Source: Oscillospiraceae bacterium (GTDB lineage: Bacteria > Bacillota > Clostridia > Oscillospirales > Oscillospiraceae). From it: 64,000 bases of DNA. A model generated the notes under the pieces. It made no database searches. It saw nothing but the letters and a program-made list of their open reading frames with translations, and was not told the origin of the DNA. Below, piece by piece: positions 18,990-23,899 of the stretch. Each line of letters begins with the position of its first letter. Position 1 is the stretch's first letter. Made by a program: the position numbers and the translations under genes. The DNA is taken from assembly GCA_024691985.1 (NCBI GenBank), contig JAILNC010000129.1, positions 62,001 to 126,000 on the forward strand, given 5' to 3'.

Positions 18990-19015
18990 AACGTGAGGCT
19001 TTTTCGCCTCACGTT
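18990..19015. terminator. Bidirectional terminator between tyrS and the convergent C39-like gene
   Basis: AACGTGAGGC-ttttt(c)-GCCTCACGTTTT. Confidence 0.85.
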
Positions 19016-19734
19016 TTGCGTTCGATATAGAGAATATTGCTGACGATCGTCGTGCTGTGTCTGCGGGCATAATGTTCAAATTCTGAACGGTACATGTAAT
19101 AACAGCGCCCCCAGGAGGAGATGCGCAGCCATCGGTCATCCATGCCCGTCACAGTGAAATAATGGGCGCGTGCGCCGGAGGACGGGTGATAGTCGCCCGA
19201 AGGGGTTTTCTCATAAAAGGAGACCTTCTCCTTCTGCCACAGGAAGGGGAAATTCGGTCCGGCAGACATGATGACCGGAAGATCCGCGGCAAGCATCGTC
19301 TCGATCCGCCCCCAAAGCTCCCTGTGGGAAACACACCAGCGGCAGGAGAAGGGGAGACTGTAGTGCCGGAAAAAGCGCTGCATGCCCGCCGCGAGCATCA
19401 AACCGTTGATGCCGAGGTAGGGTATCAGCGGGAAATACTCCCTTCGCAGCTGATGAATCAGCTCATGGTAAGCGGAGAAGGGGAGGGGATTGGTCTGCAG
19501 GCAGACGTCCAGCATCGGAATGCGGCCGTGGTTGTGCCAGCGCTGCAGATACAGCAGCGTGTCCGCCGCCGCGATAATGCCGCAGCCGCAGAGGTTAACC
19601 ATATGATTGTCGGAAAACTGCTGGCCGCCGCCGTAGGTTCTCTGCCCGTCCAGCGCGACGGAAATATAAGGATGCTGCAGGGAGAGCATGTTCATCACCG
19701 TCTTTATTATACAGCAGCTTGCCCGGACATTCAA
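19009..19734 (-). CDS. C39/papain-like cysteine peptidase family protein, function unknown
   Basis: NLCGCGIIAAADTLLY (Cys), GARAHYFTVTGMDD (His), RISSWGRCYYMYRSEF (terminal WG motif). Confidence 0.6.
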   Translation of the reverse strand: MNVRASCCIIKTVMNMLSLQHPYISVALDGQRTYGGGQQFSDNHMVNLCGCGIIAAADTLLYLQRWHNHGRIPMLDVCLQTNPLPFSAYHELIHQLRREYFPLIPYLGINGLMLAAGMQRFFRHYSLPFSCRWCVSHRELWGRIETMLAADLPVIMSAGPNFPFLWQKEKVSFYEKTPSGDYHPSSGARAHYFTVTGMDDRWLRISSWGRCYYMYRSEFEHYARRHSTTIVSNILYIERKT

Positions 19735-21081: not shown

Positions 21082-21110
21082 TTGATTCTACCACGCAATG
21101 AGGATATAAT
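21082..21110 (+). promoter_or_regulatory. Candidate sigma-A promoter of fba
   Basis: TTGATT-N17-TATAAT. Confidence 0.7.
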
Positions 21111-21178: not shown

Positions 21179-22147
21179 ATGCCACTTGTGACCACGAAAG
21201 AGATGTTTGCGAAGGCCTATAACGGCGGTTATGCCATCGGCGCCTTCAACGTCAATAACATGGAGATCGTCCAGGGCATCACCGAGGCGGCCGGTGAGCT
21301 GAGAAGCCCTGTTATCCTGCAGGTGTCCAAGGGTGCCCGCGCCTATGCCAACCACACCTATCTCGTGAAGCTTGTCGAGGCTGCGATCATCGAGAATCCC
21401 GAGATCCCGATCGCCCTGCATCTGGACCACGGCGACACCTTCGAGCTCTGCAAATCCTGCATCGACGGCGGCTTCACCTCCGTCATGATCGACGCTTCCT
21501 CCAAGTCCTTTGAAGACAATATCGCCCTGACCCGTCAGGTCGTCGAGTACGCGCACGACCACGGCGTCGTCGTCGAGGCCGAGCTCGGCACCCTGGCCGG
21601 CGTTGAGGACGAGGTCTCGGTCGAGCATGGCCATGAGAGCTACACCCGCCCCGAGGAGGTCGAGGAGTTTGTCAGCCGTACCGGCTGCGATTCGCTCGCC
21701 ATCGCGATCGGCACCTCTCACGGCGCCTATAAGTTCAAGGCCTCCCAGTGCACCCGCAATGCCGACGGCGTGCTTGTTCCGCCTCCGCTCCGCTTCGACG
21801 TGCTGGAGGAGTGCATCAAGCGTCTGCCCGGCTTCCCGATCGTGCTGCACGGTTCCTCCTCCGTCCCGCAGGAGTTCGTAAAGATGGTCAATCAGTACGG
21901 CGGCAACATGCCCGACGCTATCGGCATCCCGGAGGATCAGCTCCGCGAGGCCGCCAAGCTCGCCGTCTGCAAGATCAATATCGACTCCGATATCCGTCTT
22001 GCCATGACCGGCAATATCCGCAAGTACTTTGCCGAGCATCCCGACCACTTCGATCCCCGCCAGTATCTCAAGCCCGCACGTCAGGCGGTGAAGGACATGG
22101 TCGCCCACAAGATCGTATACGTGCTGGGTTCGGACGGAAAAGCATGA
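21179..22147 (+). CDS. fba: Class II fructose-1,6-bisphosphate aldolase
   Basis: GAFNVNNMEIVQGI, ALHLDHGDTFE, VEAELGTLAGVEDEVSVE, HGSSSVP. Confidence 0.95.
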   Translation: MPLVTTKEMFAKAYNGGYAIGAFNVNNMEIVQGITEAAGELRSPVILQVSKGARAYANHTYLVKLVEAAIIENPEIPIALHLDHGDTFELCKSCIDGGFTSVMIDASSKSFEDNIALTRQVVEYAHDHGVVVEAELGTLAGVEDEVSVEHGHESYTRPEEVEEFVSRTGCDSLAIAIGTSHGAYKFKASQCTRNADGVLVPPPLRFDVLEECIKRLPGFPIVLHGSSSVPQEFVKMVNQYGGNMPDAIGIPEDQLREAAKLAVCKINIDSDIRLAMTGNIRKYFAEHPDHFDPRQYLKPARQAVKDMVAHKIVYVLGSDGKA

Positions 22148-22185
22148 TCCGCTGACCTCGCCAGGATTCTCAGGGAGGTGGCAGA

Positions 22186-23838
22186 ATGAGCCAGGGACAT
22201 ATAAAAAAACAAGCGCCGAAAGTCGATCCATCAAAGCTTTCCGCCACACTTAGTAATTTTTTGGTCATCAGACTCGTTGTAGCTTCCGTTATTTTCGCCG
22301 TGGCGCTCATCCTGAATATCCCGAGCTTTCTCAGGATTATTCTGCTGGTGCTCGTGGCGGGCCTCGCGGGTTTTGATATTATCGTCAAGGCTGTTCATGC
22401 GGTCGAAAACGGCGAATTCCTTTCTTCGCCCGTCATGCTGGTGCTGATCGCGGTCGTCGCCTTCTTCGTGGGCTTTGCCACAGAGGGCGCCGCGCTGATC
22501 CTGCTGTATCAGATCGGGCTGCTGCTGCTGAATTTTGCCAAGGAGCATACGAAGAGGGCGGCGCTGGATCTTATGCAGGACTGCGACGAAGATGTGATCG
22601 CGCATATGAAGGAGCTGGCGCGCGACGAGGAGAACTGCTCCATGGCGATCGAAGACGTCATGCGCGTCAGCGCGGGTACGATCCTTCGTCTTGCCATGCT
22701 GCTGGCGGTGGTTTACGCGATCGCACTGCCGCTGTTTACGAATCTGAGCTTCCTGATCTCCATCCACAGGGCGCTGGTGATCCTGCTTATTGCCACGCCC
22801 CTGTCTGTCGTGGTGTCCATTCCCGTCGCGGGGCTGGTCGGCCTTTGCAGCAGCGCGAGCCGCGGGCTGGTTTTCAACAACGCCTACAGCATGGAGGCCA
22901 TGGCGGACGCATCCGTTGCGGTCATCGACAAGAATGGCGTCTTCACGGACGAGTGCCCGCGCGTGATCTCCATGTTCTCGGACGCGCTCGATCAGGATAC
23001 CTTTCTGAACTTCGTGGCGCATGCCCTGTACTACTCCGAGCAGCCTGTCGCACATGCGGTTTCCGCGATTTTTGACCATGACTACCGGCTGGACGTCATC
23101 AAGGATTTCCGTGAGATCCCGGGATACGGCGTTGAGCTCTCCATCGACGGTATCCCCGTGACCTTTGCCACGGCGGAATATCTCCGGGGCAGGGGACTGG
23201 ATATCGAGGAGACGGACGAGGGCGTCGGGCAGACCTTCTACATGGTCGTCTCCGGCAGGAAAATGGGCAAGGTCGTGATCACCTCCGACGTCAATCCGAA
23301 TCTGGAGGATCTGGTGCCTGAGCTGAAATCCGCCGGGATCGGACGCTGTATCCTCCTGTGCGAGGACAGCAAGGAGGCCGGGCAGGACTTCGCCGAGGCT
23401 ATGAACTTCTCGGAGATGTACGCCCAATGCAATACGCCGAAGAAGCTGCAGATCGTCGACGAGACCACGCGCAAGACGAAGGGGGCCGTCCTGTTCCTGT
23501 ATGCCAACGGCATCGAACAGCACAGCGCCGCCGCGGTCGATATCCGCGTCGCCAAGCGCGCCAAGTATGCCGACGCGGTCGTAACAGCCGACGAGCTGGG
23601 CAATCTGCCGGTCGTCAAGCAGGTCTCCAAGCGCGTGCGCGATATCTGCATAGAGAACGCCTTGTTTGCGTTTATTGTGAAAGCAGTGCTGATTTTCCTG
23701 AGCATCCTCGGCTACTGCAATCTCTGGCTGGCTGTGGTGCTGGATTTCGCGACTGCGATCGCAACGGTGCTCAATACGATCCGGATCACGGGACCTTCGA
23801 TCCGCGCCAATCTCAAATACCGATACAGAAGACAATAA
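22186..23838 (+). CDS. Degenerate P-type ATPase-like membrane protein (putative pseudoenzyme)
   Basis: TM core and order of P1B ATPases, but IDKNGVFTDE instead of DKTGT, ATPLSVVVSIP instead of CPC, YANGIEQHSAAAVDI instead of GDGINDAPAL, and no recognisable TGES/actuator domain. Confidence 0.8.
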   Translation: MSQGHIKKQAPKVDPSKLSATLSNFLVIRLVVASVIFAVALILNIPSFLRIILLVLVAGLAGFDIIVKAVHAVENGEFLSSPVMLVLIAVVAFFVGFATEGAALILLYQIGLLLLNFAKEHTKRAALDLMQDCDEDVIAHMKELARDEENCSMAIEDVMRVSAGTILRLAMLLAVVYAIALPLFTNLSFLISIHRALVILLIATPLSVVVSIPVAGLVGLCSSASRGLVFNNAYSMEAMADASVAVIDKNGVFTDECPRVISMFSDALDQDTFLNFVAHALYYSEQPVAHAVSAIFDHDYRLDVIKDFREIPGYGVELSIDGIPVTFATAEYLRGRGLDIEETDEGVGQTFYMVVSGRKMGKVVITSDVNPNLEDLVPELKSAGIGRCILLCEDSKEAGQDFAEAMNFSEMYAQCNTPKKLQIVDETTRKTKGAVLFLYANGIEQHSAAAVDIRVAKRAKYADAVVTADELGNLPVVKQVSKRVRDICIENALFAFIVKAVLIFLSILGYCNLWLAVVLDFATAIATVLNTIRITGPSIRANLKYRYRRQ

Positions 23839-23857
23839 CAAAAAAACAATAATAACA

Positions 23858-23893
23858 GTCTCAAACGGCCGCAGAAATGCGGCCGTTTGAGAC
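23858..23893 (+). terminator. Perfect 16-bp stem GAAA-loop hairpin after the degenerate ATPase gene
   Basis: GTCTCAAACGGCCGCA-GAAA-TGCGGCCGTTTGAGAC. Confidence 0.8.
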
Positions 23894-23899
23894 TATCAA

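Follow-up and report, generated by a model that had tools for sequence, protein, structure and literature searches.

A P-type ATPase cannot complete its transport cycle without the actuator domain, the TGES motif and the hinge Asp. P-type ATPases that are without some of the pump parts include the pineal PINA form of ATP7B and splice forms of SERCA1, both derived from active pumps by alternative splicing or promoter use, and the soluble archaeal MJ0968. To our knowledge, none of these is a gene family devoid of the actuator domain and of all the motifs, and a search of open-licence papers turned up no account of P-type ATPases that lack the actuator domain or are pseudoenzymes, and none of an operon of aldolase and ATPase genes.

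The P1B-2 (Zn/Cd) ATPases are marked by an M5 signature, N(x)7K, and an M6 signature, DxG(x)7N; in ZntA, E202 lies on the exit path of the metal, D714 belongs to the metal site and K693 pairs with D714 (PMC6305203). Here we describe a pseudo-pump family that is held by gut and rumen bacteria of one bacterial family and is encoded behind an aldolase gene. One member lies in the window, the whole 64,000-nucleotide stretch of Oscillospiraceae DNA that was analysed, and is a relative of the P1B-2 (ZntA-type, zinc/cadmium export) ATPases. Like ZntA (P1B-2, Zn/Cd/Pb; PDB codes 4umv and 4umw), it has helices MA, MB and M1-M6, the P and N domains, the N(x)7K of M5, the Asp of M6 and the exit Glu of M2. 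Unlike ZntA, it is without the actuator domain, CPC, DKTGT, HP and GDGxND, and is predicted to run no pump cycle.

Architecture and lost motifs of the window protein

The pseudo-pump frame begins with ATG and encodes 550 amino acids. Its ribosome-binding site, GGGAGGTGG, ends 4 bases 5' of the ATG, and the GGAGGTGGC stretch before the start is kept in most orthologues, which bears out the full-length frame with a ribosome-binding site proposed in a preliminary description of this DNA. The gene and the altered regions of its product are as follows:

22173-22181, + strand: ribosome-binding site GGGAGGTGG of the pseudo-pump gene, similar in most orthologues
22186-23838, + strand: pseudo-P1B-type ATPase, 550 amino acids, eight predicted membrane helices, without actuator domain
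22537-22680, + strand: linker of about 48 residues replacing the actuator domain; about 86 residues gone relative to an intact pump
22795-22803, + strand: TPL where M4 of a pump has its metal-binding CPC
22927-22941, + strand: DKNGV in place of the phosphorylation motif DKTGT, with the Asp retained
23035-23046, + strand: SEQP in place of the nucleotide-binding motif SEHP
23500-23517, + strand: YANGIE in the region of GDGIND, the Mg-binding hinge motif

The hydropathy of the protein fits the usual membrane segments, eight in all, and together with alignment to canonical pumps it reveals a membrane part laid out as in P1B pumps, MA and MB preceding M1. The heavy-metal P-type ATPase model TIGR01525 matches at 2.7e-45, a score below its cut-off (155 versus 346 bits), and the protein as a single sequence matches the solved ZntA structure 4umv at 4e-25, the value being 7.5e-54 when the profile of the pseudo-pump family is used. 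Because of the TIGR01525 and 4umv matches, the DKNGV, YANGIE and TPL changes are not attributable to chance. Pfam returns only a sub-threshold E1-E2 ATPase match for the window protein and a HAD match for 11 of 18 of its relatives; an AlphaFold2 model built from four close sequences has a pLDDT of 38 and a pTM of 0.23, too low to be of use.

The stretches IDKNGVFTDE, ANGIEQ and ATPLSVVVSIP all occur where they were first reported, and the roughly 50 amino acids said to occupy the place of the actuator domain correspond to 48 aligned residues between M2 and M3, compared with 134 in canonical pumps. The actuator domain with its TGES loop is absent, and no alignment recovered a hidden one in the pseudo-pumps, a recovery that would have spoken against the initial proposal. 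In the phosphorylation motif the Asp and Lys are kept and both Thr are lost. To the motifs listed before we add the His-Pro of the nucleotide-binding domain, which is lost as well, and the CPx motif of M4 is also gone, CPC being kept only in one lineage of actuator-less proteins (genera g118 and g51).

The same losses run through the actuator-less proteins, which keep few of the 118 positions that are invariant across 35 canonical pumps. Both Cys of CPC, both Thr of DKTGT, the His of the nucleotide site and GDGIND are mostly lost: the second Thr is kept in 0%, the SEHP His in 2% (it is otherwise Gln or another residue) and the first Asp of GDGIND in 9%, while the conserved Glu after M2 is kept in 13%. 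Judged from sequence, the earlier view of a catalytically dead family stands. A protein that has neither actuator domain nor TGES loop, and whose hinge is missing the Asp that binds Mg, could not be phosphorylated and dephosphorylated in a cycle, and we infer with high confidence that the pseudo-pump does not pump.

An actuator domain supplied in trans was considered and rejected: in the window's genome, which is 79% complete, no stand-alone actuator domain was found, and the only two full ones sit within other P1B proteins.

Conservation and selection at the aldolase locus

The genomes examined are mostly metagenome-assembled. Within the genus, 60 of 76 genomes carry the pseudo-pump (28 of 34 among those of high quality). 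Nearly all of the 60 matches are open frames, a few counting one stop codon; three fall short of full length, a contig end being the cause in at least one. Relatives down to 25% amino-acid identity have the same architecture in open frames. Outside the bacterial family, no actuator-less protein spanning the model was among the matches listed in a search of 299 genomes of the order, made at a strict cut-off (E 1e-70) that weaker members may escape.

Over 20 pairs, Nei-Gojobori dN/dS was 0.03-0.22 in all cases that allowed an estimate of dS. These ratios resemble those of a canonical P1B pump (0.22) and tyrosyl-tRNA synthetase (0.16) from the same genome pair, in which the aldolase has 0.03. In the three closest species, omega was 0.094 in the P/N region versus 0.11-0.21 in the other regions, so the P/N region is no less constrained than the membrane part. 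The pseudo-pump is thus very probably kept under selection, which implies a role that is not pumping. Frameshifted or neutrally evolving homologues, named at the outset as evidence that would count against a maintained family, are not what these frames and ratios describe; with catalytic residues lost from a gene that is intact and constrained, the protein would qualify as a pseudoenzyme.

A decaying pseudogene of a former zinc pump would account for the disappearance of all catalytic motifs, for the 16 of 76 genus genomes without a match and for at least one true loss beside fba. It would not leave open frames down to 25% identity, omega of 0.03-0.22 and a kept ribosome-binding site; because of the open frames and dN/dS values we reject this explanation, which we regard as highly improbable.

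The pseudo-pump gene follows fba, which encodes a class II fructose-bisphosphate aldolase, an enzyme that uses a divalent metal, usually zinc. The surrounding features are:

21082-21110, + strand: putative sigma-70-type promoter 5' of the aldolase gene (TTGATT-17-TATAAT), a match to the consensus
21179-22147, + strand: fba, class II fructose-bisphosphate aldolase, first of the gene pair; TIGR01859 above cut-off; adjoins every family member
23853-23898, no strand assigned: hairpin of 20 bp that separates the pseudo-pump gene from xerD; the T-run that passed the scan is that of the - strand

In all 39 loci that show both genes, fba lies immediately 5' of the pseudo-pump gene with a gap of 1-75 bp (one locus without fba, L089, is a canonical pump included for comparison), and a divergent phosphofructokinase gene is present in nearly all fba-pseudo-pump loci where the stretch reaches far enough. 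A scan found no promoter-like site between fba and the pseudo-pump gene. The two genes appear to form one operon, and the hairpin is the likely end of their transcript. No fba occurs within about 1.5 kb of the canonical P1B pumps sampled by similarity, those linked to fba aside.

Ten genus genomes without a pseudo-pump match were checked: seven also lack this fba, two have the locus cut by a contig end at the pseudo-pump start, and only G372 keeps fba, with xerD as the next gene. The operon suggests a link between pseudo-pump and aldolase, and may be historical; we put the chance of a functional tie at about even.

Some further observations concern this locus. Seven genomes of the genus (G022, G025, G028, G374, G004, G379 and G024) are without both the pseudo-pump and its class II aldolase at E 1e-80. 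Genome G087, with 6% contamination, has two loci of fba and an actuator-less pump (L087 and L088) on different contigs, which may reflect a strain mixture rather than a duplication. Between the tyrosyl-tRNA synthetase and phosphofructokinase genes of the window lies a fast-evolving BtrH-like gene (19009-19734, - strand; dN/dS 0.34) whose position shifts among related loci.

Intermediate states behind fba

Pumps in several states, from intact to damaged, stand behind fba in other genera of the bacterial family. L170, from genus g77, is an intact zinc-type pump; a second intact pump, L177, lies further from fba. L170 is a canonical P1B pump that resembles the pseudo-pump in lying behind fba, in having the divergent phosphofructokinase gene and in being nearby in the tree, and differs from it in having all catalytic motifs intact and a Cys-containing N-terminus. 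Full-length pumps with damaged motifs occupy the same place in L155, L158, L166, L176, L052, L053 and L059; L128 is partly deleted and L161 actuator-less. The proteins of g118 and g51 are actuator-less too, with CPC kept in six of six and a Cys/His-rich N-terminus. These intermediate states at the fba locus show a pump-to-pseudo-pump conversion that would have proceeded in steps at a fixed site.

In the tree, most damaged forms join the window's family (support 98), and the g118 and g51 proteins fall near the intact L170. An AU test disfavours holding all actuator-less proteins together (p 0.036), and a single origin of actuator-domain loss is accordingly disfavoured. But both main actuator-less lineages are missing the same 86-87 residues, and the tree contains long branches; the loss may have happened once or several times.

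The window contains a second non-canonical P1B ATPase (748-2712, + strand), immediately followed by a HAD gene and the spoIIIA operon. Its DKTGT, SRHP, GKG and GDGEND are intact, but SGQR has replaced TGES and RPA has replaced CPC, and the Lys of M5 and the Asp of M6 are gone; with this combination the protein might be phosphorylated yet not cycle normally. Its orthologues in the genus form their own clade with variable damage.

Retained residues and possible roles

Several residues of the ZntA exit path are kept:

22483-22485, + strand: E100, equivalent to ZntA E202 on the metal exit path in M2; all 46 of 46 actuator-less members have it
23680-23682, + strand: K499, equivalent to ZntA K693, the Lys of the N(x)7K signature in M5; found in 45 of 45 members whose sequence covers the position
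23743-23745, + strand: D520, equivalent to ZntA D714, the metal-site Asp of M6; likewise found in 45 of 45

N491, which aligns with ZntA N685, is likewise kept in every actuator-less member with residues there. The P1B-2 signatures of the window protein accordingly read N491...K499 in M5 and D520...N530 in M6, the Gly of DxG being A522. Such retention is what a passive metal facilitator or slow leak would need, in which Zn2+ or protons follow their gradient through the membrane part by way of E100, N491, K499 and D520, and the g118/g51 lineage does have a full CPC site without a motor. With CPC and the conserved Glu after M2 lost from the window's lineage, a working metal path is less credible; a P-type pump that is not cycling is occluded, and the strong constraint on the P/N region would be left unexplained; we therefore consider a leak unlikely. 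The retained Glu, Lys and Asp may just hold the helices together, as in the K693-D714 salt bridge of ZntA.

On the cytosolic side, the window protein retains the phosphorylation Asp, D248, and the Lys of the P domain, K420, which are kept in 93% and 91% of actuator-less proteins, so some phosphoryl chemistry may be conceivable. G313, G315, S284, D248, K249 and K420 are each kept in over 90%. These residues, the low omega of the P/N region and the operon with aldolase and divergent phosphofructokinase gene would suit a nucleotide or metabolite sensor tied to glycolysis, whose P/N domain binds a ligand and whose membrane part is a mere anchor. That the nucleotide-site His is replaced in all but 2% and that membrane residues are no less conserved make such a sensor improbable in our judgement.

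Pseudoenzymes commonly regulate active paralogues, and the dead paralogue might form complexes with the cell's canonical P1B pump and tune it: the window's genome also encodes a canonical pump (G000:C4) and the second, half-damaged one. Canonical pumps are also found in genus genomes without the pseudo-pump, however, and the conserved neighbour is fba rather than a canonical pump, which makes this partnership a poor candidate, somewhat less probable than the leak or the ligand sensor.

The overall best reading, which we hold at about even chances, is a non-cycling pseudo-pump derived from a P1B-2 pump and linked to the aldolase. A P1B-2 export ATPase behind a class II aldolase gene would have become a pseudoenzyme that is held in one conformation and keeps the outward-side charge cluster (the equivalents of E202, K693 and D714) together with a folded P/N domain. 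The joint constraint on the P/N region and exit path suggests a protein fixed in one state that senses or binds something. It could act in the membrane as a sensor or scaffold through which metal status is relayed to the zinc-dependent aldolase or the neighbours of that enzyme, a way of working that we put forward tentatively, as somewhat doubtful. The most specific form of this proposal is that a zinc pump was converted, possibly several times independently at one locus, by precise removal of the actuator domain, keeping the exit half of the metal path and becoming a metal-responsive regulator of the zinc-dependent glycolytic enzyme of the same operon; taken as a whole, it is unlikely to be right in every part.

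P-type ATPases are usually seen as machines that cannot transport without their three cytosolic domains. Pseudo-pump genes may carry an annotation as heavy-metal exporters, which calls for caution. A long-lived actuator-less family in which each catalytic motif has been substituted, together with its natural intermediates at one locus, would show which parts of the membrane domain merit keeping without the motor, and the pseudo-pumps are natural material for asking what an uncoupled pump scaffold can do.
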